Positions 7,201-60,100 of a stretch of DNA of 64,000 bases are shown piece by piece. The notes under the pieces are model-generated. The model ran no database searches and was not told the DNA's origin. It worked only from the letters and a program-made list of their open reading frames with translations. Made by a program: the position numbers and the translations under genes. The DNA is from Desmodesmus armatus. Its lineage: Eukaryota; Chlorophyta; Chlorophyceae; Sphaeropleales; Scenedesmaceae. How positions within the stretch are numbered: position 1 is the stretch's first letter; every line of letters begins with the position of its first letter. The DNA lies in assembly GCA_007449985.2 (NCBI GenBank), contig VIIQ02000830.1, forward strand, positions 186,001 to 250,000. Direction: 5' to 3'.

Positions 7201-10200
7201 ACAATGGCGGCAGCAACGGCCATCTGCAGGTGGGCGCATGCTCTGTTTCTTCAGACTGTTTTGTTCTGTTTTTATTGTTGAGATTGTTGTTGTTGTCTTG
7301 GGTGATTTTGGGCGCATGTACTGGTTAGAAGAGACATATGTAGGTGGTGCAGTGTCAATGGAACCTGCGCAGGTGCGACTGGCAGCCATCTGCAGGTGGG
7401 CGCATGTGCTGTTGGTTTTTGGGTTTCCTAGTAGAGTTTCTGTGGGTGCGTTGGGTGTTGTCGGGCAGTGGAGTCACTTGTAGGTGTAGCAGGTTTTTTT
7501 GTCAGCGGCGCAGGTGTGGCTGGCAGCTGCAGGCATGTTGGGGAGGGTGGTGGTGGCAGGCTGTGTTTGGTGGGATTTATCGGTGACCTTGTGTGCACTT
7601 GCATATTTTGTCGGCACTATTATCGTCACAGCAGCACAGCGAAGAAGACGCCGTTGGAAAGCTTCGTCAACATAGGGTTGTGTTGGGGTTGAGTTCTGTG
7701 GCGTGTCTGTTGCTGCATTTGCTGTGCTGTGCAGTGACAAGACTGGCACGCTGACGGAGAACAACATGGCTGTGGTCAAGCTGATGGTGGGAGGCGCAAC
7801 ATTCAACGTCAGGCCCTCAGCACGCCCTGCGGCAGCAGCCAGCAGCAGCAACGCCAGCAGCAGCAGCCGCCAGGGCGGCAGCAGTCCATTCGGACTGCTG
7901 CCAAGAGGTACTACCGTCAGCAGCAGCAGCAGCGGTATCATCAGCCCCCGCAGCCCCACTCTGCGCAGCACCAGCAGCATTGCAGTGTCAACTGCCGGGA
8001 CCGACACTGAATCAGACGAGGAGCAGTTCCCTGCCGGCAGCGGCAGCGCTGCAGCGGCGGCAGTACCTGCCAGCACCACTGCCAACCAGAATGGCAGCAG
8101 TGGCAGCAATGGCAGCAGTGGCGGCAGCTACACTAGTGCCAGCAGCGCAGGCCCGAGTGTATCCAGTGTCGATGCTGCTGCTGGTGCGTCCCAGCTCGGC
8201 AATGCAGGGCCAGGAACACGGCGCAGGCAGCAGCAGCAGGCAGCATATGCATCAGGGTTTAGGCCAGATGTGCTGACTATGGTCAGCCTTAGCTTAGATG
8301 GGGAGGCTTTGGGTCAGGAGGATAGTGTTGCTGCTTTACAGCAGCGTGTGCAGGCCGATGTGGCAGATGTGTACTGCTCGCCGGACGGCGCCACGAGTGA
8401 CAACAGCGACAGCGACTTACTGCAGGCTACTGCTAGTTACATGGGCAGCAGTACTGCTGCTGGGGTGACTCTGACTACTGAGGGGCTTGAGGTTGGTGGG
8501 GAGGGCGGCAGGTGCTCACCGCGCCTCTCAAAGACCTTGAAGCAGCTCCTGGCAGACAGCATAAGCCTCAACAGTACCGCCAGCATCAGGCTGGTTGATG
8601 CTGCTGCCGATGGCAGCAGTGGCAGCGATGGCGGCGGCCAGCCCTGGCAGCAGCAGCAGCAGCAGCAGCAGGGTGCGATGGAGCCTTTGGCGTGTGCGGT
8701 GAATGGCAGTGGCAGCAGGCAGTTGGATCGCAGTGGCAACAGGACTGAGTGTGCGTTGCTGGAGTTTGGTGGGCGGCTGGAGGGGCGGCTGCTGCCTGGC
8801 TGTGGCTCTGTGGAACAGCAGCGGCGCGTCCTGCAGGTACGAAATTGACGATGTGACTTGGAGAGCATGTGAATTGACTTGGAGAGCATGTGAATTGACG
8901 ATGTTTGACTTGGAGAACATGATGTGTGGGCACCTGCAATGCGCAGCCAAGCACATTGCTCCAGTCTTTTGTTTTCGGCAGCGCATGCAGTGCCTGCCTT
9001 GAACACCTCGCTTGCCTTTCCAGATGGTTGCGTTCAGCAGCACTCAGCAGCGCTTCAGCAGCCTTGTAGCCATTCGACCTTCGGTTGGACAGGACGCTTC
9101 ACTGACAGCTGATGTCGCGCCTTCTCCCCCCCCCCCCCTTGCCGCCTGCCGCCATGTGTCCTCTAGGTGTTTCCCTTCAGCAGCACTCGCAATCACTTGA
9201 GCAGCCTGGTAGCTATTTCTCCGTTGGTTGAACGGGACTCTTCACTGACAGCTGATGTCGTACCCCCCCCCCCCCGCGCGTGCTGTCCTCTAGGTGTTTC
9301 CCTTCAGCAGCACCCGGAAGCGCATGAGCAGCCTCGTTGCTACGGGTCTACCGCTGGCTACTCCTGGCACTGGGGGTGTGGGCCAGCCAGCGCGGCTGTA
9401 TGTCAAGGGAGCCGCGGAGCTGCTGCTGGACAGCTGCCGCCTGCAGGTGGGCCTTCTGTCTGCTTTTTGTGCATTGTTTATTCATGTACTTATGATGAGT
9501 GCAGATGAGCCCTTTGTCTGGCTCATGTGAGTAATTGTATTGAGTTTGTCTTGCTGGGCTGCCCTGCTTCATCTTTGTCTCTGGTATAAATAAAGCATGG
9601 GGTGGCACGGACCAAGGAAAACTTGGGGCCACAGATGTGCATTAGAAGATGCCTCTGGTATGGGAGCCGGGGGCGGGTGGGGTAGGGGTGGGGGCGGCTG
9701 CGCTTGACAAGGGCTGAGGCGCTGTTGGACAACCACCTGCAGTGTACAGCAGTACGCTGGGCAAGTAGTTCCAATGTGATTGTCAAGAATCGAAAGGCTG
9801 TACTGCGCATGTTCATGATCTCTAATGGCTGTTGAGCATGTTACAATCTATTGCACGAGGACATACGCCTGAGGCTGGCCTAAACACTCATCAGTCACCC
9901 CCCCCCATGCTGTTCAGGTTGCGCTGGACGGCTCCCTAGTGCCACTGCCCCAGGATCAGGTTCAGCAGCTGAAGGCGCGCTGTGGGCGTGGCGGCCTTCG
10001 GGTGCTGGCCCTAGCCTATAAGGACATGCTGCTGCAGCCGGCCGGCAACAGCACCCTCACAGCAGCAGCGGCGGGAGCAGGGCAGCAGCAGCAGCAGCAG
10101 GAGGGGACTGAGTGGCAGCTGCTTGAAGATGATGATGACCAACAGGACTTGGTTCTGATTGGGCTGCTGGCGCTGGAGGACCCAGGTGTGTGGGGTATGG

Positions 10201-12941: not shown

Positions 12942-15250
12942 CAGGTCCATCGTGTCTGCCGTCAAGTGGGGCCGCAACGTATACAGCAGCGTCACAAAGT
13001 TCCTGCAGTTCCAGCTGACCGCCAACGTGGTGGCGCTGGTGACGGCAGCAGGTGGTGCCCTGGCGCTGCGCTCCTCACCCCTGTCGGCGGTGCAGATGCT
13101 GTGGGTGAACCTGATCATGGACAGCCTGGCCAGCCTGGCTCTGGCAACTGAAGCACCCACAGGTAGGGTAGACCCTGACCATTATGACGATTACGTAGAC
13201 GAGCCTGCAACAACGTGTGGTCTCCTTTGAAAACGTTTGCAGGGCAGCATGGGCGCAGAGCTGAGGACTTTAGGGGGCAGGTGGTGACGAATTCGACTGG
13301 AAAGTTGCCGACCAGATGGTAGCCAAGCCTTATTGTGTGCATTTACTGCCGCAGCCGCCTCTTGAAATGATGCCATCAGCACCCACATCTGCATATAAAT
13401 CCAAACATTGACTGTCCTGCTGCCGCAGAAAACATGCTGGACGAGCCCCCTCGTGTGCATTCAGTGCTGCCGCCGCCAATTGTAACGATGCATCAACACC
13501 TCAACTTGCACTTAACCAAACATCGACTGTACCGCTGCCGCAGAAAACATGCTGGACGAGCCCCCTCGTCAGCGTGACGGCCCCATCATCACCCCCACAG
13601 TAGCCAAGTCCATCGTAGGCCAGGCAGGCCTGCAGCTGACAGTCATGGCAGCCCTTCTGGGCCCCATGGGTGATGCCCTCACGCACCACACACCCACCGT
13701 CGCAGATGCAGCGGCAGCAGTGGCGGGGGCAGGGGCAGCAGTGGCGGATGCGGCTGTGGCTGTGGGTGTGGATGGTGCTGCTGCTGCTGCTGTTGTTGGC
13801 GGTGTTGATCGCGTGGAGCAGTACACGTTGGTGTTCAACAGTTTTGTGATGATGCAGCTGTTCAACCAGGTGAGGGAGGCTGCTGCTGCTGCTATGCATC
13901 ATATGTATCATGCATATCGTGCTGTCGTTGGCATCGTTGGGGATGTCATGATGGTGTGTTTGCTCTGCTGCCTCCTGCTGTGCCGCCTGGCTTGTTTTGT
14001 TCACAACACATGGGTTTTGCTACATCGGGGAGTGTGATTGGATTTGCTGCAGCTACTGCTATAAGCTGACTCTTCCTGCCTTTTGGCCTGCCTGCCCGCC
14101 CGCCCCCCTGTGTCTTGTGTTGTTGTACCTGTGCAGTTGAACAGCCGTAAGATCCATGACGAGCCCAACGTGCTGGAGGGTCTCAGCCAGCAGAAGCTGT
14201 TCCTTATCATACTGGGCCTGGAGCTGGGGCTGCAGGTGGGTTTGCCTGTGTCGAGTTGTACTATACTGTACTGAACTGCATGGTACTGTACTGTACTGTG
14301 CTGTACTGTACTGTACTGTACTGTACCTTACTGTAATGTTTGTTGTACTGTTCAGTGTCAGTGAGCGGGGTGGGTTCAGCAGCAGCCGACTGTTGTGGTG
14401 CTGATGTAATGTGTGGACAAACACATTGGTTAAGCATTGGAGCCTGACCTTGAACAGCAAGGTTGAATGGGTTGACTGGGTTGAATGGGTTGTGTGCGCA
14501 TGTGTGGCTCTGTATGGTGTGGATGGTGGGGCTACGGCCAGCTTCCTGCACAGGCTTGACTACATCATCGAGCCATTGTTGGAAGCTGGCAGGTGCCACC
14601 ATCTTCACTCTACAAAGACACACACGTACACCAGACATTCAAGCTTGCCGATCATGAACACGAACATCGTATAAAAAAATGTGCCAAAACCTGCACATCC
14701 GGCAGGATCTAGTCAGTTTGGGCTTTGGTGATGCTTGGATCGCTGGGTAACAGCTGGGGTGGGCATCAGTCCCAGGCGCGCCCTGCATAGGCTCAGTCTG
14801 CCGCTGACGCAATGCCCCTGACTGTAGCTGATGTGCTGCTGCTGTTGCTGGCTGCAGGTCGCTATTGTTGAGGCAGGCGGCCGTGCGTTCAGCACAGTGC
14901 CGCTCAGCGCCACTCAGTGGGCCGTGTGTGTTGGTTTCGGAGGCCTCACACTCCTGCTGCGGCAGGCGCTGCGGCTAGTGCCTACAGAGCCGCCACCACC
15001 CAGCAGCCCTGGCGGCAGCACTGGCAGCAGTGGCAGCAATGGCAGCAGCCGCCGGCAGCAATGGCAGCAGGGCGCTGTGGCAGCAGCGGGCGCGGCGGCG
15101 CAGGCGGCGGCTGCACTGCCGATGCGTGGGTTGAGGCTTGTGAAGGGGGCTGCCGCTGCTGTGGGGGGTCGGCTGAGTGGCGGGAAGGCAACAGCAGCAG
15201 TAGGGCAGCAGGACGCGAGCAGCTTGCAGCGAGAGCCTGCTCGCCGATGA
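4225..15250 (+). CDS. P-type Ca2+-transporting ATPase, P2B (ACA/PMCA) type
   Basis: Fifteen exons: about 4225-5390, 5715-5845, 6055-6262, 6574-6825, 7051-7229, 7735-8836, 9294-9446, 9918-10185, 10718-11133, 11451-11666, 12374-12546, 12945-13162, 13544-13869, 14137-14235 and 14858-15250. All junctions after the first exon are in phase. Motifs in order: actuator [12 protein letters not shown]4 [20 protein letters not shown]; phosphorylation site [10 protein letters not shown] (Asp near residue 647); [11 protein letters not shown] and [11 protein letters not shown], then [10 protein letters not shown] in the nucleotide-binding domain; [34 protein letters not shown]5-M6 [18 protein letters not shown]. 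This matches plant ACA and animal PMCA pumps. The protein would export Ca2+ from the cytosol. Large Ser/Ala/Gln-rich inserts follow the phosphorylation site and the TGDN motif. The first exon keeps frame only if one C is added to the C6 run at 4595-4600. With it the product is about 1766 residues and begins with an Arg/Ser/Ala-rich, acid-poor leader that could be a transit peptide. Start and targeting are uncertain; the enzyme identity is not. Confidence 0.9.
7381..7407 (+). repeat. Echo of ATPase exon 5 donor edge
   Basis: The segment gcagccatctgcag followed by gtgggcgcatg repeats the last bases of the exon ending at 7229 and its 5' splice site, about 160 bases into the intron. A more decayed version lies near 7518-7535. 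Confidence 0.65.
8846..8922 (+). repeat. Short tandem repeat in an ATPase intron
   Basis: Three imperfect copies of a 22-26-base unit built on gacttggagagcatgtgaatt follow the donor of the exon ending at 8836. They are intronic and have no coding meaning. Confidence 0.7.
9024..9260 (+). repeat. Two acceptor-edge echoes of ATPase exon 7
   Basis: Copies of the start of the real exon (9294) begin at 9024 and 9167, each right after an AG. They translate as [15 protein letters not shown] and [16 protein letters not shown], against [16 protein letters not shown] in the real exon. Both then share an unrelated tail (SLTADV) and a C-run and lack the downstream YVKGA segment, so neither can replace the real exon. 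Confidence 0.8.
10262..10455 (+). repeat. Donor-edge echoes of ATPase exon 8
   Basis: The exon ending LLALEDP with its donor at 10186 is echoed at 10262-10296 and again, more diverged, at 10364-10392. The second copy carries along about 65 bases of following intron (gcggcagctgctgggtcttg and on), matching 10209-10258. Confidence 0.75.
12072..12135 (+). repeat. Decayed acceptor-edge echo of ATPase exon 11
   Basis: The segment aggctgtaaaggcgctgcgg resembles the start of the real exon at 12374, 300 bases upstream of it. The reading frame has decayed, but the exon start and its preceding AG are recognisable. Confidence 0.65.
13417..13475 (+). repeat. Acceptor-edge echo of ATPase exon 13
   Basis: Polypyrimidine, AG and the first 25-27 bases of the exon that really starts at 13544 (encoding ENMLDEPPR) occur here almost unchanged, about 110 bases upstream. 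The copy then diverges. Confidence 0.8.
14258..14335 (+). repeat. TACTG pentanucleotide microsatellite
   Basis: Imperfect tandem tactg/tactgtac units fill the start of the last ATPase intron just after the donor at 14236. Confidence 0.85.
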
Positions 15251-19510: not shown

Positions 19511-22500
19511 TCACGTGCGCGCACCCGCAGAGTACCTCAGCACTGCCAGTAGATCCCCAAACACACCAGCTGCTGTGACATCCGCCCCCGCCCCAGGCCC
19601 GCGGATGACTAACGGCGTCTGCGCAGAGTACCGCTCCGTAGTGAACACTATCATGTTCTCCGAGCCGGAGAGCTGCGCAAACGGATGGCTTGATGGGTAA
19701 TTCTGCACGCTGACACTGGCTGTGCCTGCGACCATGTCGACCTTGCCGACGTAGCGCATCACACAGCCAGCGTTGGCGGCGTCGGCAGCTTTTGCAGCCA
19801 TGTCAGCATCGTACTGCGGCACACAACAGCGGTGCAGGGACAAGTGTGCAGGCAAACAGCTTATAACTAATTTGCATTGCATTGCAAGGAAGGTGGTGTG
19901 GATGCGCAACATAACGATGGATAGACGCTACTTGTGCTGCTTGCAGTCGTCATCGACCAGCTGTCATCACACAGATACCTACAGTTATCAGCAACGTGAG
20001 ACAAAAGCTGCCACCGGCAGAACACAAAGGTGCTGGCAGCATTTCACTACCAGCCTTATCGGAAAAATGCTGGGCTGCAGGAAGAGCACATGTGGTGCAC
20101 AGCACACCAGCACACCCCCTCAGGTGCAGGCAACCCTCATCTGCAGCAGTCACTGTCACAGTACTGACTATCACTGGCAGTGCCTTGCTAAGACTGCAGG
20201 AAGAGCACAGCACGCCCCAACTGTATTGTTTCACCCCAGCAGCTGCAGGTACCCCTTTTACCTGTGGCAGCTGCTGCATGAAGTCCGTGACTGACAGTCC
20301 CTGCAGCGGTTGTGGCACCAAGCTGGACACCTGCAGGTCTGACAGGCCCAGCTGCAAGCCACACTCACGCGCCAGGATCACTACCTTGCGGGCGACGTCA
20401 GCACCTGCAGCAGCAGCAGCAGTAGCAGCAGCCGCCAGTGCATGATGAGGGGCAGCAGGACCAGCAGCAGCAGCAGCAGCAATGAGCGAGCAGCAGAATG
20501 AAAAGACGTAGTGTGTGGGCAGAAAGAAGTTCAGCAGATCAGAAGACAGCAGCAACAACGCGATGGCAAGGATGTGCTCTGTACAACCTGCCTCGCGGTC
20601 ACCACCACACACCCCACCCTGCGCACCTGAGAGGTCATCCCGTGGGTCCGGCTCTGTGTAGCCCAGCTGCTTGGCCTGTGACACTACATCACTGAAGGCG
20701 TCTCCTGGCCTGTATGCATAGGCGAACAGCGGTTGAAAAGCAATGGTGGACAGCCATGTGGCGACATGCTGTTATAACCAGTGCAAGTACTGCTGGCTAG
20801 GGTCGTCGATGGCCCAACCATGTTGAGCTGTATTGAAGTGAACTGATCTGAACTGAACTGAACTGTACTGGGCTGTGCTGACTGTACCCCAACGTAACTG
20901 TCCCTGATGAATTTCCCAGTGCTGAAGTTCATTACCTGTATGTGTTGAAGAGGTAGCTGAGAGTGCCGCTGAGAATGCCCTCTATGCTGACCACCCTGTC
21001 ACCACTGTCTAGAAGGTTTTTCAGGGTAGATATGACTGGCAGGCCGGCACCCACTGTGGCCTCATACATCCAGTGCTTGCCTGCATAGGTTATTGGGGGG
21101 GGGGGGGAGGGGGGGCCAGGGAGGGGGGAGGATGAAGTTGTCATGACAGACTATTGTGGTTGCAAGCACGGGGCCAAACATGGCCTGATACACCCAGTCT
21201 TTGCCTCCAACACAAGATAAGGATACCCTCTATGCTGACCACCCTGTCACCACTGTCCAACAGGTTCTTCAGGGTACTGATGACTGGCAGGCCTGCACCT
21301 ACTGTAGCCCCATACATCCAGTGCTTGCCTGCATTAGTGAGAGGAGGGGAGGGGGGAGGGGGGGAAGAGGGGGGGGGGGGGTGTGAGGTCGGCATTGCAG
21401 ACTACTGGGGGTGCAAGGGCGGGGCCAGGTGTGGAGTAAAACATCCAGTGTCTGCCTTTCACACAATACACAACAAGGTGAGTATACAGGCTATGCTGAC
21501 CACCTGTCACCACTGTCCAGCAGGTTCTTCAGGGTGGGTGCCCACTGTGGCCTCATGCATCCAGTGCTTGCCTGCAGGAGTTGAGAGAAGGGGGGGGGAG
21601 GGGGAGGAGGGGGGGGATGGGCAAGGGAGGGGGGAGGATGAGGTTGGCATGGTGACTGTTTGATTGCAAGGGTGGGGCCAGATGTGGCCCAACACATCCA
21701 GTGCTTGCCTGCGAGACAAGACAGGGATGCCCTCTATGCTGGCCACCCTGTCACCACTGATCAGAAGAGTTTTGGGGAGATGACTGGCAGGCTGGATGGA
21801 GGGGGGGGGGGGTTGGCATGGCGGACTGGGGTGGAGGACGGGGCAAGAGACGGCCTGGCGAACTTGTGTGGACGCAAGGCGCCACAAGGTGTGGCTTCAT
21901 GCATCCAGTGCTTGCCTGTAAACGGTATGTAGCCAATGCACGTGGTGAGAATGGTTGGGGTTAGAGCAAGGTGCACCCCGTGAGGGGGCAAAAGTGCAGA
22001 GGCCATCAGTAATTGCTGTGGTTGTATTTGGAATGTCAGAGGCAACAATCCAAATCCAACCACAGCAGTCACTGATGGCCTCTGCACTCTTTTCCCCTCA
22101 CCTTGTCCCACCGGCCACGGTTGTGCTTTTTCGCAGCTGGTATATGTCATGGGGGTCATTGCCCCCCCCCCCCCCCCCCGACACGGCCCAGCCTGACCTG
22201 ACGTGACATGTGCTGTGCTGCAGGTGCCGCAGCTGTGTGTAGCGCTTGCCCCCCCCCCCCCCCACACACACACACCCACTGCCCCAACCTGACCTGTGCT
22301 GTGCTGCAGCTGCCGCAGCTGTGTGTAGCGCTGCAGGGGCCCACTGCCCAGCTGCTTGTTGGGTGTGATGATATGAAGGCCCAGGTCCCCCAGCCAGTGG
22401 GTGTAGTGCTGTGGGAGGCTGTCTGAGGCAGTACAGTCCAGCAGTACACCAGCTGCTGTACCGCTGTACGCTGCGACGTGCTGTGCCAGGGCCTCAGGGT

Positions 22501-40304: not shown

Positions 40305-43300
40305 ATGGCAGAGAAGGACGTGCTGGACAAGACTGTTCAATTCCTGCAGAAGCGGGAAGGCATAGACAAGGTACACCGTTATTGCAGAGACACCCAACGA
40401 GCCAACATGGCCCCTGCACCCCCTGCATCATGTCAGTTGCAGCTGCTGTTCAGGCCAGACTGAGCAGGGCAGTGCCTTTTCTGCTTGTCTGCAGGCTCTC
40501 AAGATCATTCGCTACACCTCCAGGCTGATTGCAGCTGTGAGTCCGCCAGGCAGTGAGCAGCGCAAGCGATTTGAGGCGCTGCAAGCCAGCGTGGGCACCA
40601 GCAGGTAAGCAATTGCTTTAGTGGTGGTGCCTTCTACAGCAGTTGGGATCTATGCATGTGGACTCACCAAAACCAACTCATGTATACTCAAAGAAGATCT
40701 GTTTTTCAAATACTTTGGATACCGTAAGTCAGCTGCGATTGTGATACAGGCCATACAGTCGGGGTCAGCAGCAGCAGGCATGAGCAGGGGTGGGCAGACG
40801 CGGTGCAAGCCCTTGCAGGCTTCATGCAATATGACAATAACAACCCCCCCCCCCCGTGCTGCCATGCTCTGTTCCCCATGGTGTCTCACACAGAAAGGCG
40901 TACCGCCTAGGCAAGTTCCTCCAGGACGTGAATGGGTTACGTAAGGTGCGGCTGGCTGGCGGTCACCTGGCAGTGCTGGAGCTGGTGGTGTACCTGGGGG
41001 AGGGAACATACTACTTCCTGGACCAATTCACATGGTGAGCACATTGGATGAGTAGCCCACAATGCAGCAAGAACCTGTTGTGACCCCCCCCCCCAAAAAA
41101 ACAAGTGGTGCACTTGGCTTGTAACTAGCACCTACTACTTCCTGGACCAATTCACATGGTGAGCACCTTGCTGAACAGCCCACACTGCAGCAACAACTGT
41201 CTAGGTGTGACACACACGCCGTCCTCCCCCCCCCCCCCAAAAAAACAAGTGGTGCACTTGACTTGTAACCAGCACCTACTACTGCCTGGACCGATTCACA
41301 TCGTGGGTCGCCCTGCAATTTGCTGTCACACTATGGGGCACCTCAGTTGAACAGCCCATATAGCAGCAATGTAGTGACTGGCTGGTGGGAGCTGGTGGTG
41401 TACCTGGGGGAGGGAACCTACTACTTCTTTGACCAATTCACATGGTGAGCACCTTGGCTGAACAGCCCACACTGCAGCAACATTGTCTAGTTGTGACACA
41501 CGCGCCGCCCCCCCCCCCCCCCCCCCAGAAAAACAAGTGGTGCACTTTACTTGTAACTAGCACCTACTACTTCCTGGACCAATTCAAGTGGTGAGCACCT
41601 TGCTGAACAGCCCACACTGCAGCAACAACTGTCTAGGTGTGACACACACGCCGTCCTTACCCCCCCCCCCAAAAAAAACAAGTGGTGCACTTGACTTGTA
41701 ACCAGCACCTACTACTGCCTGGACCGATTCACATCGTGGGTCGCCCTGCAATTTGCTGTCACACTATGCGGCACCTCAGTTGAACAGCCCATATAGCAGC
41801 AATGTAGTGACTGGCTGGTGGGAGCTGGTGGTGTACCTGGGGGAGGGAACCTACTACTTCTTTGACCAATTCACATGGTGAGCACCTTGGCTGAACAGCC
41901 CACACTGCAGCAACATTGTCTAGTTGTGACACACGCGCCGCCCCCCCCCCCCAGAAAAACAAGTGGTGCACTTTACTTGTAACTAGCACCTACTACTTCC
42001 TGGACCAGTTCACATGGTGAGCCGCGGACTGCACATTGCATTGCAAACCTGCTGGCACACTGTTGTAACGATTGCGACAGCTTAGAGGTTGGACAGCTCA
42101 CAATGCAGCAAGGTTGTATTTGACCTTTAGGAGTCGTCACAGCAGTACTTCCTGGACCAATGCACATGGTGAGGCGCGCATCATGCTGCTGACATTGCAA
42201 GACGGAACAGTTTCTGCACCTCGGCTGTATTGCCCACAATGCAGCAAAATATGTCTAGTTGTGACACCCCTTCCCCCAAATAGTGGTACACACGACTTGC
42301 AACCAGCCATTGTATCTCAGCATGACAGCGGCGGTGTACCATATGAGTGAGAGATGGCATGTACCTTGATGCGGACAAGGCTGTAAGACATAAACTGTTG
42401 TGCGCATGTTGGTATAGACAGCCCCTACCCCTCCCCACTAGAGTGTGTTCATGGGCCACAACCATGTACGAAGGTGCAAACAGTGACCATCATATGCTGA
42501 CCCTCCTCCCCCCCACCCCCACCCCGCCCCCCTCCCCTGCCACCCCCCCCCCCCCCGGGCGCGTTCGATGTATGTGCAGGTTGGTGAAGGCTGGCTTCCT
42601 GCATGTGAACAAGCAGCAGGAGTCAGCAGTGAGCAAGGCGTCCGCATGGGCTGAGGCTGTTGGCTACGTGGCCAACATCGTCCTCAGCACACACAAGCTG
42701 CAGCAGCTCAACCTGCAGGAGCAGCAGCTGCTGAAGAAGGTGCAGCAGCACTGCAGGGTGAGGAGGGCGGATGCGCGTAGATCTAGTAAACCCTGAACTC
42801 TAAGTCCCAACTCTAGACCCTATTAGACGGCGTCAGTCCGACGCCCTGGGTGGCGTGGACATCCCAGCTGCAGGCCACGTATGTACACCCAATTCCTTTC
42901 CCCTGTTCCTACAGTTTTGCAGGAGAGCTGGCAGCTTTGCAGCAGATCACAATCATGCACATGCTCGGGGGCTGTGGCTGTGTGTGCATGCTGAACTGGG
43001 TGCTCAGCATGCCTTTGGTGCTGCCTGTGCAGGTGGATGGTGTGCGCAAAGACTTGCACCTTTGATTTTTCGTCCATGAACCACTGAGGGGCTTCATGCC
43101 AGAGGCTGTGCTTGCAAACTTGAGTGTCGAGAATGCTGTTGTATTTGCCTGACCCTGGTGCTGCCTGTGCAGTAGGATGGGTGTGACGTCAAAAACACTC
43201 AGACGCTGCAGGCTGTGAGACTGTGCTGCATGCTTGGGTGCTTGACCTGACTTTGGTGCTGCCTGTGCAAGAGGATGGTGTGATCGTCAAGTCATTGGCA

Positions 43301-45024
43301 TTGACTTGACCTTCACACCATCATCCTGCACAGGCAGCACCGATGTCAGGTCAAGCACCCAAGCATGCATAACCACTGCGATGCTTCAGGCCTGAGGCTA
43401 TGCTTGCAAGCTTGTGTGCCGAGCATTCCTTCAAAGCTGTCTGTGCTGCCTGTACTACATCTGCAGGAGGATGGTTCGTGTGAGGAACCGGGTCTGCTGC
43501 GTCAGTTGGAGCTGCTGCGCACCGCCAAGCTGATGCGGCTTGCCTTCATATGCCAGGACCTGGCAGACGGGCTCATGGCAGTCAATGACATCACAGGTGA
43601 ATGTTGAATTTGGGTAGCTTAGGGGCCAGTTTAGGGCTGAGGTTGGAGGTACTTCCGCATGTGCCATAAGCTGGCGTAGCTGTAGGCTACGAATTCATGG
43701 CAGTCAATGACATCACAGGTAGGGTCACGGGCTTGAGTTGAGGTGTTGTTTCATCTACTAGAAACGGTTTCAGGGGGGTAATTAGGGATGACGCGGAGGC
43801 AAATTTCCAAAAGGAGGAACCTGGCAGACGGGCTCATGGCAGTCAATGACATCACAGGTAGGGTCAAGGGCTTGAGTTGAGGTGTTGTTTCATCTACTAG
43901 AAACGGTTTCAGGGGGGTAATTAGGGATGACGCGGAGGCAAATTTCCAAAAGGAGGAACCTGGCAGACGGGCTCATGGCAGTCAATGACATCACAGGTAG
44001 GGTCAAGGGCTTGAGTTGAGGTGTTGTTTCATCTACTAGAAACGGTTTCAGGGGGGTGATTAGGGATGACGTGGAGGCAAATCTTCAAAAGGAGGAACCT
44101 GGCAGACGGGCTCATGGCAGTCAATGACATCACAGGTGAATGTTGATGGTTTGGCTTCAAGCTAGTGTAGCGTTTTGATCATTGGGCCTGTTTAGGTTGG
44201 AGGTTGCAGGTATTTCCTCATGCCAGGACCTGGCAGACGGGCTGATGGCAGTCAACGACATCACAGGTGGGGTCAAGGGCTTGAATTGAGGCGAGTGCAG
44301 TTTCATCTAGTTTCAGGGGGGTAATTGGGGATGACGTGGAGGCCAATGTCCGAAAGGAGGGACCTGGCAGATGGGCTCATGGCAGTCAATGCTATCACAG
44401 GTGAATGCTGAATGGTTTGATTCAAAAAGCTAATGTAGCGTTTTGGTCATGGGGCCAGTTGAGGGTTGAGGTTGGAGGTATTTCCTCATGCCAGGACCTG
44501 GCAGACGGGCTCACGGCAGTCAATGACATCAGAGGTGAATTCAAATGGATTAGCTTGAGGCTAGTTTGTCGTTTTGATGTACGGGGCCGGCTCAGGGCTG
44601 AGGTTGGATGTGCTGTTGCACTATATTAATTTTTTAGTTGTTTTTTCAATTATTAAATAATTAGTATTTAGTAATTATATTCTAATTTTTTGTATTTACT
44701 TGCCAGGACCTGCCAGATGGGCTCATGGCAGGCATCATCACCATGGGTGGGGCTGTTGGTGGGTGGGCGGGCGAATGGGCGCTGGGGAGCAGCTGTGGAA
44801 ATCAGAGATGATCTTCTGAGCAGTGGGCGCAGCGGAGGCTAGCAATCTTGACAGTGCGGGTGTCAACGACACTTTGTGTCAGTGACAGCTGGGGTCGACC
44901 TTGGGGTTTTGTTTCTGCCTGCTGTGCAGACGGGCGCTACAAGGGCTTCAACCATCCTGTGGTGCTCAGCTGTGCTGGCCTCTTATCAGCAGCAGTCAGC
45001 ACGTACAAGTACTGGGGCACGTGA
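40305..45024 (+). CDS. PEX11: Peroxisomal membrane protein PEX11
   Basis: Six exons: 40305-40370, 40495-40604, 40894-41034, 42580-42757, 43467-43596 and 44930-45024, all in phase, 239 residues. PEX11 proteins remodel and elongate the peroxisomal membrane before fission. The N-terminus reads [20 protein letters not shown] and [11 protein letters not shown], the conserved PEX11 amphipathic region. Then come [20 protein letters not shown] and LQDVNGLRK, the family signature. The hydrophobic stretch [20 protein letters not shown] matches the first membrane-associated segment, and the C-terminus [20 protein letters not shown] matches the final one. The length is normal for plant and algal PEX11. 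Introns 3, 4 and 5 are each expanded by tandem copies of the neighbouring exon edge, yet all real junctions are clean. The gene is divergent from the DHRS12-like SDR. Confidence 0.95.
41123..42175 (+). repeat. Donor-edge echo array of PEX11 exon 3, in a higher-order repeat
   Basis: Eight copies of the exon 3 end ([10 protein letters not shown] with its gtgagc donor, real at 41035) occur at about 41131, 41277, 41390, 41563, 41710, 41823, 41988 and 42145. They are separated by C/A-runs and a gcccacactgcagcaac motif. Copies 1-3 and 4-6 form two rounds of a unit of about 430 bp. Donors vary (gtgagc, cgtggg, gtgagg). Confidence 0.92.
43017..43200 (+). repeat. Acceptor-edge echoes of PEX11 exon 5
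   Basis: The run ggtgctgcctgtgcag followed by a gaggatggt-like exon start recurs at about 43017 and 43152, and again inside the foldback at 43228-43368, before the real acceptor at 43466. Confidence 0.8.
43228..43368. repeat. Foldback of about 67-bp arms in PEX11 intron 4
   Basis: Left arm 43228-43294 and right arm 43302-43368 are near-perfect inverted copies with a 7-base loop. Each arm contains the exon 5 acceptor echo, so the right arm carries it in antisense. Confidence 0.9.
43690..44745 (+). repeat. Donor-edge echo array of PEX11 exon 5
   Basis: Eight copies of the exon 5 end ([16 protein letters not shown] plus donor, real at 43597) occur, ending near 43719, 43858, 43999, 44136, 44267, 44400, 44535 and 44746. 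The middle ones keep a period of about 141 bp with a shared spacer (gggcttgagttgaggtgttg). Later copies are progressively diverged. Confidence 0.92.
44621..44690 (+). repeat. AT-rich island, core shared with 59755-59811
   Basis: A 62-base AT-rich insert beginning ctatattaatttttt within the last PEX11 intron. Its 32-base second half is identical to the island at 59755-59811 in the last aldolase intron. Confidence 0.85.
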
Positions 45025-47242: not shown

Positions 47243-47305
<63 letters not shown>

Positions 47306-47823: not shown

Positions 47824-47861
<38 letters not shown>

Positions 47862-49529: not shown

Positions 49530-49596
<67 letters not shown>

Positions 49597-51741: not shown

Positions 51742-54700
51742 ATGGCAGCACTCCAGCAGTCCTCAATTCGCATCCATGGCGCAGCCAGCAGGCCCACTCG
51801 CAGCAGCAGGCGTGCGGCATTCAAGCCCGTCGCTTCGTCTGCCTTTGAGAAGGGCAACCCCTACCTGGAGGAGATGAAGCAGACAGCAAAGTACATTGCA
51901 AAGCGCGGCAAGGGTATCCTGGCCAGGTGGGTGTGTTGATCTGAACATAATTGAGTATTGACAGTATGTTGTGACAGCGTTTGTTGCTGTCGGCACGGAC
52001 AATTGGCAAGGTACCAGATGCCAGTGGTTTCTATCGGCCCCACTAGCCCATTCTGGTACCCGACATTGCTTTGCTGTGTGCACCACACTACAGTGGCCTA
52101 GCTGGGAAGGGGAGCTTCCCGTCCCCTACAGCTTCTGCTTCTGATATATAATATGTAATAAATATAATAATTAGTATATTATTATTATACATATATATTT
52201 TATTTTTCAAAAAAAGCGCACCAGCAGATGTGTGCAGCAGGGTTCCGAGAGCTGCCGTGTGTGTGATCCATGCCTCGACAGCAGTGTGGGGTGGCAGCAA
52301 ATGACCTGCCGGAATCCCCAGTGGTTGCTCTGGGGGGTTTTGCGGGGGGGGGGGGGGGGGGGGGGGGGGGGTAGGGGGGGGGAAGGGGGAGGGGGGGGGG
52401 AGGGGTAGGGGGGAACTCCCACCGGCTGGCCACACACACAATCCAACTGCCATGGGCACCAATGAGGTACGCCCAACACCCCTCCCCCAGGAGGTGCCTA
52501 GTGCTGGGACCAAACAAGCATGATAGTTCCAAGTGGTGCCTCTGTGTTCTTGAGGCTTGTGCATTTAGGGTGGGGGTGTTGCAATTGTATGCTTGCACCG
52601 CTGGGCGAGCCTTTCCATGTTGAATTGGGCAGACCAAGGGTCTAGTAGCCTCCCATGTGTGGGGTGGCATATACCTTTTGGCATCCCGAGGATAGCGGGA
52701 CGCTGAGTCCTATGCCACCCTACACACAGGAGGCTACTGGACCCTTGGTCTGCCCAATTCATCAATATGTTTCAACGGTGCTGCCACACTGGGTCCCTTG
52801 AGGTTGGCTCATCCTTTGAGGTGATGGCTTCAGAGGGTTGAATATATTAATATAATAAATAATAAATAATAAAATATATTATATTAATGTGCCAGCCACA
52901 TTGGGGACTAATGTTCCCATCACCCGCCATGACGGTTATCACACACATTATGATGTGTGGTCTGATGTGTAGACACAGGGATGCATCCAGCCACTGCAAC
53001 AACTATCCAAGGATGGTCTTGAACACATCGAGTTGCATCAAGCAGGTGCATGGTGTAAATGTCATGATGACAGGGTAACCATGTGTGTGCATTGTGTGTT
53101 GCTGTGTGTTTTGTTGCTGTGTGCACAGTGATGAGTCCAACGCCACCACCGGCAAGCGCCTTGAGTCTGTCGGTGTCGAGAACACCGAGGACAACAGGCG
53201 CGCATGGAGGGAGCTGCTCTACACAGCACCAGGTAGGGTGTTAGGCGCGTGAGGTTGGTGGGGGGGGGGGGGGGGGGGGCGTCCACCAATCCAGGGGTGG
53301 GGGTGAAAAAGCCGCCAAGGGGGGGGGGGCAGCAGGGATGGCTTGAGTGCTGAGGCGCTCGGAGGGAGCTGCCGTACACAGCATCAAGTGGGCATTGGGT
53401 GTGGTGTGGGAGGGGGGGGGAGCTGGGTTGTCAAGCTGATGGGGCTTACCTTGTGCTTGTGCTTGTGCTGATGGTTGTGGCTGTTGGTGAGGCCTAATTT
53501 GGGCCTTGATGTCTTGAAGGCTTCAGTGCAGTAAAACATAAGCGGGTGCCGCAGCGGCAGCAACTTGCTGTTGAACAGCAGCGGTGTGTGTTCCGGTCAC
53601 TGCAAGTGTATGGTCCATGGCCCCTGCAGAAGTCACCACCAGCAGCCCACTGTGATGTCATGCTCACGAGGCACACAACTGCCCTTCACCCACTTACCCT
53701 CACACCAAAGCAATCGCTACGCCGGTCAGAAGCCCAAGCAGGGACTATTGCACACTAGCATCTTACTGGACTGTTAAAATAAAATATAATAAAATAATAA
53801 CAATAATAAAAATAATATAAAAATATATTTTTGACTACTTTTATTTTTTTTATGGCTGTATTGCAGTGTTGATCAACACCCCCCCTCCTATTGCTTACAG
53901 CTGCCCCCACCCTTCCTGTTGCCCCCCCCCTCCCCATGTCCCTCTCTTGACAGGCCTTGGTGAGTCCATCAGTGGCTGCATCATGTTTGAGGAGACGCGC
54001 AGCCTTCTGGCGCCCGACTTCATTCACTCTGGCCGCTCACTCTGCCACTCACCCCACTCACCCCCTCCCCTCGGCCACCCAATCGTTTCCTTCCCTTGAT
54101 GTTGGTGACCCCCCTCTCAACACCCCCCCCCCCCCCACCCCCGCCCCCCCCCCCCCCTACCACAGGCCTTGGTGAGTCCATCAGTGGCTGCATCATGTTT
54201 GAGGAGACACTCTACCAGAAGGCTGCTGACGGCCGCCAGTTTGTTGATATCCTCAAGGGCCAGGGCATTCTGCCAGGCATCAAGGTCGACACGGGACTGC
54301 AGGTAATCAAACTCAGCGCAGGGCACTGCACAGTATTAATTATTAGTATATAATAATAATTATATATTATTTATTAATATTATTGTAAAAGCAGGGCAGT
54401 GCACTGCTATGCACTGCATGACATAACTGCAGCAGCGGCAGCAGCTGTCAAAGAGAATTTGCTCTCAAGTGTTGTTGTGTTTTGTGGCTGAAAACAGCAG
54501 TTTGAGCAACTCTCTGTTGTGTTGTCCCATGCTGCTGCTGCAGTTCCTGCCTGGCAGTGATGGTGAGACCACCACCCAGGGCCTGGACAACCTGGGTGCC
54601 CGCTGCAGGGACTACTACAAGCAGGGGCACGCTTCGCCAAGTGGCGCGCAGTGATGCGCATCGCAGGTGGGGACATGTTTTTGATGTATTCTTGTGGGGG

Positions 54701-57700
54701 GGGGGGCTGACAGATGGCTTGCAGCCAGCCATTGCAACTCACCAAAACACAGTGTTTTGGCAGTGAGAGGTGTTTGGGTGTTTGGGGGGGGGGGTAGTTG
54801 AAGGTGTGTGACCCAGGGACTACTACAAGCAGGGGGCTCGCTTTGCCAAGTGGCGTGCGGTGATGCGCATCGCAGGTACAGGGGGACAGGGGGGAGAGGG
54901 GCAGGGGGGAGGGTCATGCTGAGCTCGGTGGATGGGTGGGTGGTAGCAGCGGCACTGATTAGTGTGTGAGTTAAGGTCCAGGCCAAGGCTGCTGCTGAAC
55001 ACAAAACACCGCCCTTGCAATGCTGCGCTTGCCCTGCAAATCGGACGCATCCAGAGAGCGAGGTTACGGGTGGATGGCAACAAATCCGCACGGCTGTGTG
55101 GCCCACTGCCGATGCCCCACTGCTACTGGCATGCAGTCTCTCATGTTGTGCTCGCCTTCTGCACTGCCCTGCTCCACCCCTGCACTACCGCCCCCCCCCC
55201 CCCCCAAAAACTATCTTGTAGGTCCTGGCCAGGGTCCCTCCACCACCGCCATCCTTGAGAATGCTCATGGTCTGGCCCGCTACGCACAGATTGCTCAGGA
55301 GAATGGACTGGTGCCCATCGTGGAGCCTGAGGTCACACTGGGTGAGTGTGCTATGTATGTCTGGGGGTGGTAACGACATGGGGGAGGGGGTGGGGGTGGG
55401 GGTGGGGGGGGGGGAGGATGTCACTGGGTGAAGAACAGGAAGAGGAACTGACTGGTGCCCATTGTGGAGCCAGAGGTCACACGGGGTGAGTGGGTGTGTA
55501 TGTTTGGGGGGTTAACGACATGGGGGAGGGGGGGGGTGTCATTGGGTGAAGGACAGGAAAATGGACTGGTGCCCATCGTGGAGCCTGAGGTCACACTGGG
55601 TGAGTGTGTGCATGTATGTGCATGTGTGTGCATGTATGTGCATGTATGTGCATGTATCTTGGCCACTACCACACATGCCCTGCATGCTCTTACACACCCT
55701 TGCATCACACCGCCTCTCCATCTCCCTGCCTGCCTACTTGCCTCACTTCTTTGCTTGTCCTGCCCCCTCCTCCCCCCCCCCCTCCTCCCCCCCCCCCCCC
55801 CCCTCCTCCCCCCCCCCCCCCCCTCCTCCCCCCCCCCCCCCCCTTCCCTCCATCAGGTCCTGGTGACTACAGCATTGAGGAGACAGCCTTCTGGAGTGAG
55901 CGTGTGTACACACACGTCTTCAGACTGCTCAACGAGTACAGCGTGGTGGGTGGGGAGGGGGCCAGAGTGTTTGTGGGTGGCGGGTGGCGGAGTGGCTTGG
56001 GCTGCTCAAATAAGTACAGCGTGATGGGTTGGGGGAGGGGGCCAGAGGATCTGGGGGGAGGGGGGGGGCAATGGGGGGGAGCGTAGTGGCATGGGCCGCT
56101 CAACGAGTACAGCATGGTGGGGTGGTGGGGGGGATGGCGGATGCGGTGTTGCTTGGGATGCAATGCATGTTGTGGTGCGTCACCCCACGTTGTGTGCTAC
56201 CATTTTGTCAACCCAGTAATCTAGCCAATATGCCTGATATACCACACTCACCCTCATGTTGTGTGTGACCAGAAGATGAGCACAATCTTGAATACTGATT
56301 CTGCTGCTTTTGTGCTTGTATGTCCACAGGTGCCTGAGGCTATCCTGCTGAAGCCCAACATGTGTCTGCCTGGTGAGATTGAAACTGGGGTTTTGGAGAT
56401 TGAAACTGGGGTTTTGAGATTGAAACTGGGGTTTTGGAGGCGTGTACACTCACACTTTGCTCCATTTGCTCCACCTGCCGTCGATGCACTCTCCGGTTTG
56501 CTGTCCTAGTTGGACTGTGTTGGTGTGCCGCTTAGACTGCTTGCATGTGGCTTGCATGTTTATACACATGTATTGTCCGTGCCTAACACTTCACACTTAC
56601 ACTTTTGTACTCACTCATCTTTCTAATGGTGTGATCATATTGTTGATGGGTGTGGTTGAAGGGTCATCGGCACTTTGAGCTGATGTCAGCATGGGCTGGT
56701 TGTGTGGGAACCATCATGGTCGTGCACCAGACCGGTCATCATCACTCGACGGTCATGCAGTCGGGTGATGGTGACCCGCCTGGTGCACGACCAGCGTGTG
56801 CTGACAACATCTCAGCCTGTGCTGACATCAGCTCCAACTGCCAATCACCGTCACCCGGTGATGAAGGACGGTGTGGTAGCTCACTTTTTGTCCAGCAGCT
56901 CTCTGTTTGTCAAGTCTGTTGGCTGAATATTGCAAGGACAGCTGAAAATTGCAAGGACCTTGATTTGCCAAGTGTCTGACACGCAATCCTGCTGAAACTG
57001 CATCATCCCCCCCCCCCCCCCCCGGGGCTGCACGCAGGTCTGGACGCCCCTACCGCCACCCCCAAGGAAGTGGCATACTACACCACACGCACCATGATGC
57101 GCACGTGAGTGGTCTATGTCGAAATGTGTGATGTGGTTGAGCGCTAGGGGTGTGGCAGCGCAAGCAGTACTCAGTTGTACCTACGTATCGGAATCATTCT
57201 GGGCTGGGCTGGTGATGCAGTCAGCATGCAATTGTACATTCAAATGCACAGCGGACGTCCCTTGGTAGACAATGGTTGCAGGCAGTGCATTGCCTTGTTG
57301 CAGCAACCTTCGCACTCTGCATGAGCTTTCAAGTATCATACTGGGTGCAAGTGCCGGTATTAGTTGCTGTCATGCAATGCAGCCTGGGGTGGACTCATAA
57401 TGTGCTTGCCGGTGTAGTACTCTGTACCAAGCCCTATGCAGAGAGCAGAGCAGGGCAACTTGCTTTTGCTTTGACCTCGCTTTGGCTTTGACCTCGGCAA
57501 GCATGCTGCCTGGCCCAGGACAAAGAACATACTTGTAGACTTGCGTCACAGCCTGACATGTGTCCTGCTTGTGTGTACATCTGCCGCGCAGTGTGCCTGC
57601 TGCTGTGCCCGGCATTCACTTCCTATCTGGCGGCATGGCGGGTGAGCATAGAAATGGACATGCGCAATGAACCTGCCGCAGAGCAGTGCTTGCCAGCACA

Positions 57701-58040: not shown

Positions 58041-60100
58041 CATCAGAGGAGGAGAGCACCCTGAACCTTCAGGCTCTGCAGGAGGCCTGCCCTAACGCAC
58101 CATGGAGCCTCACAGTGAGTAGTCATGCACTAGCAGTGCACAGTCGCTCTCTCACACACGATACCACAAGTGTCTGTCCAACCACGATTGCATGTGGTGT
58201 ATGACGCTCTTTGGCCGCCCCAATCAGTCTATGTGTTTAACAAACACCCATGCAGTGCCTGATTCTCTCACACACACAGCCACTGGCGCCGCGTCAGACT
58301 GCCACGCATGTATCATATCGTACATTACAAACACACAAAATGCAGCTGCCACACACACTATCAAGACCTTTGTGCTGAGTGGCAGCAGCTGCACATGGCT
58401 GTGCTGGCTGTGCTTGATGATGCAGCAGCAGTAAGTCAAGCTCACTGCAAAATGTCAGGATGGCGCAGTGGTAGATTGCCCAGCCACTTGCAAAATGCAC
58501 AAGCCTCAGCCAAGCTCTGCTGGCCCTTTCCTGGATTGTTGTGACAAATGATGTGTACGCTCCATGCCTGTGTGTGCCCCTGCAGTTCAGCTATGGCCGT
58601 GCCCTGCAGGCCACAACACTCAAGGTAGGCCTCAATACCAGTTCATCCCGTGTGGAGAGTACCGCTCAGCGGTGAAAGTATCCACTTGTAACAACCTCCC
58701 CCCCCCCCCCCCCCCCAAAAAAATACCATGCCAGTTTGGCTGCTGCAGAGCCTATCTCAGGGATCACAACACACTTGCTGTCCAGTTTCTGTGTGTTTTG
58801 CTTTTCTGATAGCTTGTTTCGTGTCACATGGGTTCAGCTGCAGTGCGGTGTACCCTGGAGCCTCCCGAATATAAATGGCATCCCAGAAACAGCATGTTTC
58901 TGCATGCTGCCTTCCTGTTCGTCCTGCTGTGCTGATTCGTGCTGTGCTGTGCCGTGCTCCCCTCTTCCCCCCCTGCAGACCTGGTCTGGCAAGCAGGAGA
59001 ACTGGGATGCCGCCCAGCAGATCCTGGTGGCGCTGGCCAAGGCCAACAGCCAGGCACAGCTGGGACAGTTCAAGGGACCACACCCAGTGCCAGGTACGAC
59101 CGTGCAGGGCATGTGGTGTGTGTGGGTGGGTGTTTTGGGGGTGGGGGGTGGAATGTAGTAATGTGCTCTCTACATGACTTCCAGGAAGCTGCAGCTGGGA
59201 CAGTTCAAGGGACCACACCCAGTGCCAGGTACGACAGCGGATGGTAGCCGCCCTAAGGGGGGGGGAAGAAGGGGCGGGGTTCAGGGGTTGATGTGAAGGG
59301 CTCACTACATGACTGATGGGCACAGTAGCTGCGGCTGGGACAGTTCAAGGGACCACACCAGTGCCAGGTACGACAGCGGAGGGTGGCAGGCTTTGGGGGG
59401 GGGAAGAGAGGGATGGGCAGGGGCAGGGCTCAGGGGAAAGTGGATGTAGTAAATGGCTCACTACATGACTGAGGGGCACAGTAGCTGCAGCTGGGACAGT
59501 TCAAGGGACCACACCCAGTGCCAGGTGAGCCTTGTTTGGTCGACAGGCTGGGGATGGGGCAGGGGTCAGGGGATTTTTTATCAAGGGCTCAGTATCATAT
59601 GATCTGCCATATCATATGACAGGCACAGTAGCTGCAGTAGGGGAGTTCAAGGGACCATATCCACTGGGCACTGGGCCAGTGCCAGGTAGGGGAGGTGCAG
59701 GGGGAAGGACGTGGAAGGCATGAACCGGGGAAGGCTCTCGCTGCACACGGGCAACTATATTAATTTTTTGGGTTTTTTTTATTAAATAATTAGTATTTAG
59801 TAATTATATTCTGCTTTTCACTGGGCTGCAGCAAGGGATTGCATGGCGTGGTGCACCTGGTGAACATCATCACAAGGTGTGTGCATGTGGTTCCTTTTCC
59901 TTACTGGTCTGCTCCTGCCGTTTCTCCGTCGCACGGTGTCAGTTTTTGTGACATATGACCTCGCCTGAGGGTGCTCTCTCTGCTGCAACCTGCCGCCAAC
60001 GCTTGTGCTGTGTGCTGTGTGCTGTGTGCTGTGCTGTGCTGTGCTTTCAGGTGGTGGCCGCATCATCCAGGCTCTGCGCACTGGTGGTGCCGGCAAGTAA
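51742..60100 (+). CDS. FBA: Fructose-bisphosphate aldolase class I, plastid type
   Basis: Thirteen exons: 51742-51926, 53129-53232, 54166-54302, 54544-54666, 55222-55341, 55857-55945, 56330-56372, 57038-57104, 57592-57641, 58047-58114, 58586-58624, 58979-59093 and 60051-60100; about 396 residues. It cleaves and forms fructose-1,6- and sedoheptulose-1,7-bisphosphate in the Calvin cycle. The Arg/Ser/Ala-rich leader ending near [14 protein letters not shown] is a chloroplast transit peptide. Motifs: [44 protein letters not shown] with the Schiff-base Lys near residue 261; [24 protein letters not shown]. The last exon gives [15 protein letters not shown] before TAA. Exon 4 is one base short of frame at the G4 run 54624-54627. 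A downstream copy of the same exon end has G5 and reads [16 protein letters not shown] as the family requires. At least six introns contain partial exon copies, AT islands or foldbacks. Confidence 0.96.
52335..52420 (+). repeat. Very long G-run in aldolase intron 1
   Basis: An almost pure G tract of about 30 bases followed by further G-runs broken by ta, aa and a. It is strongly quadruplex-prone on the coding strand. Its right flank (ccaccggctggccacacacac) is the reverse complement of a segment near 38204-38240. Confidence 0.85.
52588..52790. repeat. Foldback/MITE-like element in aldolase intron 1
   Basis: Arms of about 80 bases (52588-52672 and 52704-52790) are imperfect inverted repeats, the best block being aattgggcagaccaagggtc, with a 30-base loop. 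No coding capacity. The size and symmetry suggest a MITE or other hairpin insertion. An AT island (52838-52890) follows. Confidence 0.8.
53775..54060 (+). repeat. AT island and acceptor-edge echo of aldolase exon 3
   Basis: An AT-rich island (53775-53852) is followed at 53955 by AG plus the first 43 bases of exon 3 ([15 protein letters not shown]), real start 54166. The copy diverges after GAGGAGAC and keeps a C-run before its AG. Confidence 0.88.
54331..54386 (+). repeat. AT-rich island in aldolase intron 3
   Basis: About 56 bases of tta/taat-rich sequence just after the exon 3 donor, similar in composition to the islands at 52143-52208 and 57777-57850 in the same gene. Confidence 0.75.
54813..54880 (+). 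repeat. Donor-edge echo of aldolase exon 4
   Basis: The last 60 or so bases of exon 4 plus a donor are repeated here. This copy has five Gs after CA where the exon itself has four, and so reads in frame as [20 protein letters not shown]. Confidence 0.92.
55440..55610 (+). repeat. Two donor-edge echoes of aldolase exon 5
   Basis: The exon 5 end ([13 protein letters not shown] and its gtgag donor, real at 55342) recurs ending near 55486 and 55601, each preceded by a gaagaacagga/gaaggacagga spacer and a G-run. A catgtatgtg microsatellite (55608-55655) follows. Confidence 0.9.
55985..56125 (+). repeat. Two donor-edge echoes of aldolase exon 6
   Basis: Versions of gctgctcaacgagtacagcg with its gtggg donor context occur near 56000 and 56097, after the real exon end at 55945. 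Confidence 0.85.
56676..56836. repeat. Foldback in aldolase intron 7
   Basis: Arms about 56676-56752 and 56762-56836 pair around gtcgtgcaccag and gagctgatgtcagc, with mismatches. A tandem repeat of gagattgaaactggggtttt (56377-56440) precedes it in the same intron. Confidence 0.8.
57777..57850 (+). repeat. AT-rich island in aldolase intron 9
   Basis: About 75 bases of tandem ttatat/atta-type sequence. A CTG run (57988-58040) then serves as the upstream part of the next acceptor. Confidence 0.75.
59185..59690 (+). repeat. Donor-edge echo array of aldolase exon 12
   Basis: Four copies of [12 protein letters not shown] plus donor (real end 59093) lie at about 59192-59230, 59333-59369, 59489-59526 and 59640-59687, spaced about 145-155 bases. 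Each is preceded by a cacagtagctgc-type sequence that could act as an acceptor. Confidence 0.9.
59755..59811 (+). repeat. AT-rich island, core shared with 44621-44690
   Basis: Starts ctatattaatttttt and ends with a 32-base block identical to the island in the last PEX11 intron. It sits directly after the exon 12 echo array. Confidence 0.88.

Follow-up and report, generated by a model that had tools for sequence, protein, structure and literature searches.

Introns of the green alga Desmodesmus armatus carry local copies of the edges of the exons that they adjoin. This pattern, which an earlier note had described from the letters of a single 64 kb stretch of DNA (C785:186001-250000, contig VIIQ02000830.1; hereafter the window), is real and is present on all three contigs that we sampled. 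In the affected introns a piece of an exon edge is repeated together with its donor or acceptor site, and the number of such copies, which we refer to as echoes, indeed ranges from one to eight per edge. We consider it probable that the echoes stem from short tandem duplications across one exon-intron junction, that runs of G or C promote these duplications, and that the copies are kept as leftovers without a function.

Frequency and locality of the echoes

The window is part of an assembly of 115.8 Mb in 831 contigs, which represents a small and GC-rich genome. The sample beyond it consisted of 200 kb of contig C7 and of contig C613. Self-alignment, one of the checks that had been proposed, revealed a clear dominance of direct repeats: self-BLAST yielded 20 direct local repeat clusters versus 2 inverted ones in the window and 30 versus 1 in the 200 kb of C7, and a search for direct repeats in two shuffles of C7 returned no cluster.

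Gene models were obtained with a self-trained gene finder that was seeded with exons delineated by eye of the aldolase, PEX11, TMX-like and presumed Ca-ATPase genes and trained in a second round on the window plus the 200 kb of C7; the recovery of the seed exons is thus no independent check of the gene finder. Its errors included several echoes called as exons and the fusion of adjacent genes. The models were subjected to an adapted version of the screen by which exon stuttering was described in chicken (Hron et al. 2026, PMC12954441), with blastn-short and matches of at least 20 bases and at least 42.1 bits. In contrast to the published procedure a single strand was searched, matches with several source ranges were kept, and the gene models were used without manual check. 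Seventeen predicted exons that were judged to be born from echoes or arrays were taken out by hand, the long final exon of the DHRS12-like gene was shortened to 350 bases, and exons with a score below 6 or a length below 25 bases were excluded. The screen covered 30 genes and 283 introns, with 566 adjacent and 4546 distal exon-intron pairs. Here and in the analyses below introns were taken between strong exons only, which gave 283 introns for this screen, 286 for the profile of local copies and 287 for the classes of duplications.

We found 43 matches in adjacent introns, distributed over 26 of the 283 introns and 15 of the 30 genes. For the window these numbers were 12 of 50 introns and 6 of 8 genes, which is the share of multi-exon genes that the earlier note had reported; for C7 they were 13 of 217 and 8 of 20, and for C613 1 of 16 and 1 of 2. 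The pattern therefore extends beyond the window (14 of the 233 introns on the two other contigs), and the window is richer in echoes than the remainder of the sample. The matches are mainly local, considering that the 4546 distal pairs, in which matches were counted only, contributed no more than 10. When every intron was shuffled once, 2 matches of at least 20 bases were obtained, the best of which scored 16.4 bits against the threshold of 42.1. Moreover, junction probes gave 0 of 533 matches around the donors of other genes. A stricter screen with such probes detected echoes that cross the junction in 12 of 55 introns of the window and in 6 of 215 introns of C7, whereas probes from the middle of introns were copied in 4 of 182 cases. 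This stricter screen and the list of loci made use of an older low-complexity filter, by which copies were possibly missed; the neutral simulation, the junction profile and the test of sides discussed below were performed with a mended filter.

Anatomy of the echoes

The exon part of the 43 matches is 22 to 93 bases long, with a median of 39 and quartiles of 30.5 and 46.5; no more than 1 base separates its source from the exon border in 34 cases, and no more than 5 bases in 38. The pieces had been described as 30 to 100 bases in length; echoes of such edges exist, but the exon parts are mostly of 30 to 47 bases and do not extend to 100.

The repeated unit generally includes a part of the intron. 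The similarity spans at least 0.7 of the distance between copies in 30 of the 47 clusters that have an intron part, which is what a head-to-tail duplication predicts, and 0.4 to 0.7 of it in another 4. The smallest distance between copies was 70 to 278 bases in 51 of 52 clusters. Of the gapped alignments that were examined by eye, at least 3 were uninformative because the two stretches overlapped; the others suggest that scrambling of the intron part is common in places rich in C or G. The idea that echoes are inserts of the edge only was largely dropped after these alignments and the count of unit coverage, with the exception of the 13 remaining clusters.

The echoes carry the splice site along, as had been claimed. 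All 28 donor echoes that were scored have GT, and 25 of them score above the 10th percentile of real donors, versus 17% of other intronic GT dinucleotides. For the acceptors, AG is present in 18 of 24 echoes, and 17 of the 24 exceed the 10th percentile of real acceptors, versus 14% of other intronic AG. This scoring left out the junctions 44707 and 55552 of the window, 95678 of C7, and 21226, a false donor of the homoserine dehydrogenase gene. Judged by their scores the echo sites could in principle be potent decoys.

Echoes of donors lie 3' of their exon and echoes of acceptors 5' of it. Considering 215 exons of at least 100 bases with an intron on both sides, the expected side held 13 donor and 18 acceptor copies and the wrong side 1 and 2, respectively (1 and 1 with the older filter), in agreement with the earlier description. 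The messenger RNA is spared only if the first donor or the last acceptor is left intact by the copy, and survivorship of this kind would suffice to produce the rule, so that a mechanism linked to splicing is not needed for it. Survivorship is the probable cause of the side rule.

Runs of G and C

Runs of at least 7 C or G are present in 23 of 30 echo-bearing introns and in 52 of 256 others, an odds ratio of 12.9. The association is found in C7 (12 of 15 versus 37 of 200) as well as in the window (10 of 14 versus 15 of 41), and in a permutation within length tertiles the p value was 0.0002 for all introns, 0.0002 for C7 and 0.02 for the window. In addition, 17 of 32 loci have a C or G run within the repeated unit, where 4.7 were expected. 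The runs had been proposed to act from the borders of the copies; their presence inside the units and the richness of echo introns in runs are borne out, and a position at the borders is not (see below).

The runs have a distinct orientation. Of the sense G-runs 31 out of 91 lie within 60 bases of a donor and 2 near an acceptor; of the sense C-runs 35 out of 86 lie within 60 bases of an acceptor and 2 near a donor. Run density declines from 2.14 per kb in the window to 1.03 in C7 and 0.12 in C613, together with the frequency of echoes in the three regions.

A separate observation concerns the combination of runs within one intron. G-runs (at least 6) in the 5' half coincide with C-runs (at least 6) in the 3' half in 22 of 286 introns (odds ratio 3.8, p 0.0001), and the two ends of such introns could pair as RNA. 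The reverse layout, with C in the 5' half and G in the 3' half, occurs in 4 of 286 introns (odds ratio 3.3, p 0.07), and the similarity of its odds ratio counts against a special pairing of intron ends.

Divergence of the copies

The best-kept echo of each of 32 loci was compared with the real exon edge. The exon parts differ at 134 of 1544 sites, with 36:26:72 differences at the three codon positions, and are without any difference in 7 loci. The excess at third positions results from the change that is added by the real exon. Of the gaps in the exon part, 9 of 11 are not multiples of three. Where the introns could be aligned as well, which was the case at 12 loci, the divergence was 7.7% for the exon part versus 13.5% for the intron part, columns within homopolymers of the introns being skipped. 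The ratio of 0.57 is within the range of about 0.5 to 0.7 that would result from selection on the real exon alone, and hence the echoes look mostly unconstrained. Three of the junctions named above (44707, 55552 and 95678) were left out of this comparison as well, but it included 21226 and the echo-born 21328, the exon parts of which compare copies of the same exon edge. Selection on the echoes was thus not supported by this test.

Origin of the echoes

The origin that we consider probable would have three elements. A tandem duplication would cross one exon-intron junction and leave copies that are mostly 70 to 280 bases apart. G or C runs in the intron would provoke such duplications, for instance via stalled replication and template switching. 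Splicing, finally, is predicted to keep the first donor and the last acceptor, so that the leftovers would be retained without a function. The proposal in the earlier note that exon-edge segments undergo tandem duplication at high rate, the introns concerned being rich in C and G runs, is supported in the window and elsewhere, and the growth of introns by duplication is apparent from the repeats themselves.

Several observations weigh against this account. Thirteen of the 47 clusters show similarity over less than 0.4 of the copy distance, little beyond the edge being aligned; two with an identical exon part (acceptors 31406 and 54166) are among them, and a plain head-to-tail duplication is unsupported for these 13. 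Presumably, the low-coverage clusters represent the same duplications with scrambled intron parts. Runs are not enriched at those ends of the copies that could be resolved (12 of 47 versus 9.5 expected). Moreover, the window is highest in runs as well as in echoes, and both could depend on some other feature of the region. The exon-like parts of echoes are more alike among each other than the intron-like parts in 5 of 5 arrays compared, which could reflect constraint or a fast change of the G/C tracts. In addition, the use of the best-kept echo per locus makes the divergence test lean towards similarity.

A further point is an excess of duplications at splice junctions. Exon-edge duplications outnumber intron-only ones by 20 to 4 outside the window and by 15 to 2 inside it. 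Four of the 20 are doubtful (C7 68814, 117960, 164419 and 166416), and without them the comparison is 16 to 4. In this classification a small number of clusters, among them the TMX-like array at 29866-30629, were assigned to the exon-only or intergenic class, because the gene model starts or stops within them. A neutral model of random tandem duplications plus survivorship yields 39% exon-edge cases. With mutation and detection added the share is 44-49% for C7 and C613 and 34-41% for the window, and it becomes 61% outside the window when introns above 700 bases are left out; duplications placed at random but anchored to runs predict just 33%. The density of local copies shows a peak at the junctions: for donors it is 6.8% at position 0, 6.1% at -25 and 2.3% at +25, and for acceptors 10.0% at 0, 8.9% at +25 and 4.0% at -25. 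The excess over the neutral model together with this peak suggests that duplication is biased to splice junctions, insofar as the predicted gene models and the assumed mutation rates are adequate.

A plain form of tandem duplication with survivorship, in which short duplications fall anywhere and the G/C runs have no causal part, appears unlikely to us. The neutral models alone account for a considerable share of exon-edge cases (34-61%), and the divergence ratio is also in line with it. However, the enrichment in runs persists after stratification by length and in C7 alone, and the runs are found inside the units far more often than expected.

We regard it as quite unlikely that the echoes are kept as working splice sites, be it as decoy, recursive or alternative sites, or that the edges are copied by a process linked to splicing or transcription. 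The conservation of GT and AG and the good scores of most echo sites would fit such a view, as does the likeness of the exon-like parts between echoes, although intact sites are to be expected because the divergence is low and the members of one array do not count as independent cases. The view also agrees with the preponderance of exon-edge duplications over intron-only ones, with the peak of local copies at the junctions and with the clusters that align little beyond the edge. On the other hand, the spread over codon positions, the gaps and the divergence ratio fit copies that are mostly unconstrained, 6 of the 24 acceptor echoes lack AG, and the entire unit is repeated in 30 of 47 clusters. 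The suggestion in the earlier note that echoes act as decoy, recursive or regulated splice sites is accordingly left unsupported.

An artefact of assembly or polishing at homopolymer runs is highly improbable: many copies do lie in introns with C/G runs that are hard to sequence and a copy of one aldolase exon is not in frame, but the best-kept copies mostly differ from the real edge, the intron part differs where the exon part is identical, and echoes occur on three contigs. There is equally little reason to expect intron gain in progress, via the duplication of AGGT, or introner-type elements, since, although the repeated units carry AG or GT, the counted copies sit within predicted existing introns and the matches are mainly local in a screen that compared exons with introns within a gene.

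Relation to known systems

By the features of its sequence the pattern appears to be the exon stuttering of chicken dot chromosomes, with which the anatomy agrees closely and to which a distant lineage is now added. The kinship is one of mutational pattern and does not imply a common descent of the loci. According to Hron et al. (2026, PMC12954441), stuttering affects 236 introns of 115 chicken genes, as established with hand-checked gene models, and 190 of these introns are on dot chromosomes, i.e. 3.4% of 5572 dot introns. Both systems have local, direct and imperfect copies of exon edges with the donor or acceptor in the adjacent intron, in a GC-rich setting. The source is within 1 base of the border in more than 90% of cases there and in 34 of 43 here, and the median exon part is 36 there and 39 here. 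The systems differ in the number of copies, reported as 1-44 with a median of 4 in chicken, whereas here there are 1-8 matches per source and 21 of 27 sources have one. They differ also in frequency, which is 14 of 233 introns outside the window as compared to the 190 of 5572. In chicken, moreover, the exons are left intact with the repeats confined to introns, and the length of affected introns differs among individuals. Quadruplexes were suggested as a possible cause in chicken; the link to G/C runs was measured here, in an alga. In the literature searched, PMC12954441 was the sole source of the terms exon stuttering and sequence stuttering, and no report of the pattern in algae turned up, although no search was aimed specifically at that.

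Tandem duplication has been related to introns before. A model of intron gain by tandem genomic duplication (Rogers 1989, as told in PMC4974935) involves a duplicated segment with splice signals, and the same source describes intron gain in potato through a tandem duplication that crosses an intron-exon boundary. In this crossing the potato case resembles the echoes; however, in D. armatus existing introns lengthen and no new intron was shown. In Drosophila, intron gain was related to a tandem duplication of coding sequence (Lehmann et al. 2010, PMC2891723). Duan et al. (2024, PMC10809524) described dual-specific splice sites and the UBC array, which likewise have AGGT-type sites in tandem; use of those sites in splicing was shown, whereas the echo sites are predicted and are not needed by the predicted proteins. 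Finally, C. elegans has small tandem duplications from about 100 bp after loss of HELQ-1, and also breaks induced by G-quadruplexes (Kamp et al. 2021, PMC8654963). Breaks that originate at G-rich motifs are a shared element, but the median size of the duplications in those mutants is about 1 kb.

One could go further and consider stuttering as a general eukaryotic mode of mutation that is set by the sequence. Donor-side G-runs and acceptor-side C-runs would make both ends of introns fragile, and the copying of exon edges would lengthen introns from there. Bird dot chromosomes and this alga would have acquired the process independently, and the exon-edge excess would mark a junction bias. We consider this possible but doubtful. 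As for the enzymes, a search for exons of A-family DNA polymerases gave 24 matches on 5 contigs, in which Pol theta and organellar polymerases were indistinguishable.

The frequent occurrence, in a small and GC-rich algal genome, of an instability that was reported from birds makes a genome-wide study possible. The link to G/C runs makes the mechanism of stuttering directly testable, and the natural arrays of near-identical donors and acceptors provide a system to investigate how the spliceosome chooses among equal sites.

Genes that carry echoes

The echoed junctions of the window are collected in Table 1. Pfam backs the homoserine dehydrogenase, the short-chain dehydrogenase (presumably DHRS12-like), PEX11 and the class I aldolase. 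For the Ca-ATPase a piece of 57 residues, the sole part submitted, matched a model of HAD-type hydrolases, and the TMX/thioredoxin-like protein had no match in Pfam; both names are assumed on the basis of motifs. Outside the window eight echo genes were listed, and the four that were submitted to Pfam matched Sec1, Syf1, 2-oxoacid dehydrogenase acyltransferase and peptidase C13.

Table 1. Splice junctions with echoes in the window (positions are counted from its first base).
Gene	Range	Strand	Junction and echoes	Remarks
Ca-ATPase	7230..7406	+	donor 7230; short donor echo 7396	exact 22-mer at 7219 and 7385 (echo copy 7385-7406)
Ca-ATPase	9019..9342	+	acceptor 9294; echo 9167	C-run of 13 in unit
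Ca-ATPase	10149..10452	+	donor 10186; echo 10289	another partial copy
Ca-ATPase	13335..13569	+	acceptor 13544; echo 13429	
Homoserine dehydrogenase	20972..21795	-	acceptor 21080; upstream echoes 21328, 21571	21708 partial
Homoserine dehydrogenase	22159..22332	-	donor 22294; one donor echo	C-runs in either copy
TMX/thioredoxin-like	29866..30629	+	acceptor 30553; echoes 29881, 30116, 30383	C-rich tract ahead of each
TMX/thioredoxin-like	31285..31446	+	acceptor 31406; echo 31288	exon part 41/41 identical
DHRS12-like	33166..36337	-	3' end of gene	about nine 279-base units with a piece of the terminal coding exon
DHRS12-like	36468..36800	-	acceptor 36501; echoes 36647, 36774	36774 without AG
DHRS12-like	37102..37547	-	acceptor 37172; echo 37414	
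PEX11	40978..42267	+	donor 41035; eight echoes 41159, 41303, 41445, 41591, 41736, 41878, 42017, 42169	
PEX11	43550..44752	+	donor 43597; seven echoes 43719, 43858, 43997, 44136, 44267, 44401, 44535	decayed piece at about 44701
Aldolase	53233..53400	+	donor 53233; single weak echo 53388	G-run of 20 in unit
Aldolase	53950..54208	+	acceptor 54166; echo 53954	exon part 43/43 identical; C-rich tracts ahead of both copies
Aldolase	54606..54888	+	exon edge and donor; second copy 208 bases on	upstream copy out of frame, downstream copy in frame
Aldolase	55296..55619	+	donor 55342; echoes 55486, 55600	G-rich tracts between
Aldolase	59057..59690	+	donor 59094; echoes 59229, 59368, 59525	decayed echo at about 59683

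The gene finder was misled at some of these loci: it set a false exon end at the Ca-ATPase echo 7385-7406, a locus that has no entry in the list made with the older filter, and it called two echoes of the homoserine dehydrogenase acceptor as exons. Most predicted proteins match Pfam, yet the aldolase gene has an exon copy that is not in frame, and in the DHRS12-like gene the terminal exon itself is repeated. The former (54606-54888) is either a consensus error in a G-run or a case where the echo matters. The protein that is predicted for the aldolase without the echoes aligns free of insertions beyond the N-terminus to 7 of the 120 relatives listed. Four of these 7 are 92-96% identical and probably represent transcripts, since their contigs are only 1.2-1.8 kb long. 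Among the named matches listed is Tetradesmus obliquus (81%), and the upper part of the list otherwise consists mostly of green algae. In the 279-base units of the DHRS12-like gene that were read, a GGT-rich tail and a stop codon are present.

Other features of the window

A search of the window against Rfam returned 0 matches at the gathering score. An inverted pair, 25784-26238 and 61248-61696, is 66% alike over 470 bases, and its copy at 61 kb may encode an acetyltransferase of the GNAT type. Long arrays of CGC/GCT triplets extend over 46784-50790, mostly within a predicted gene on the minus strand.

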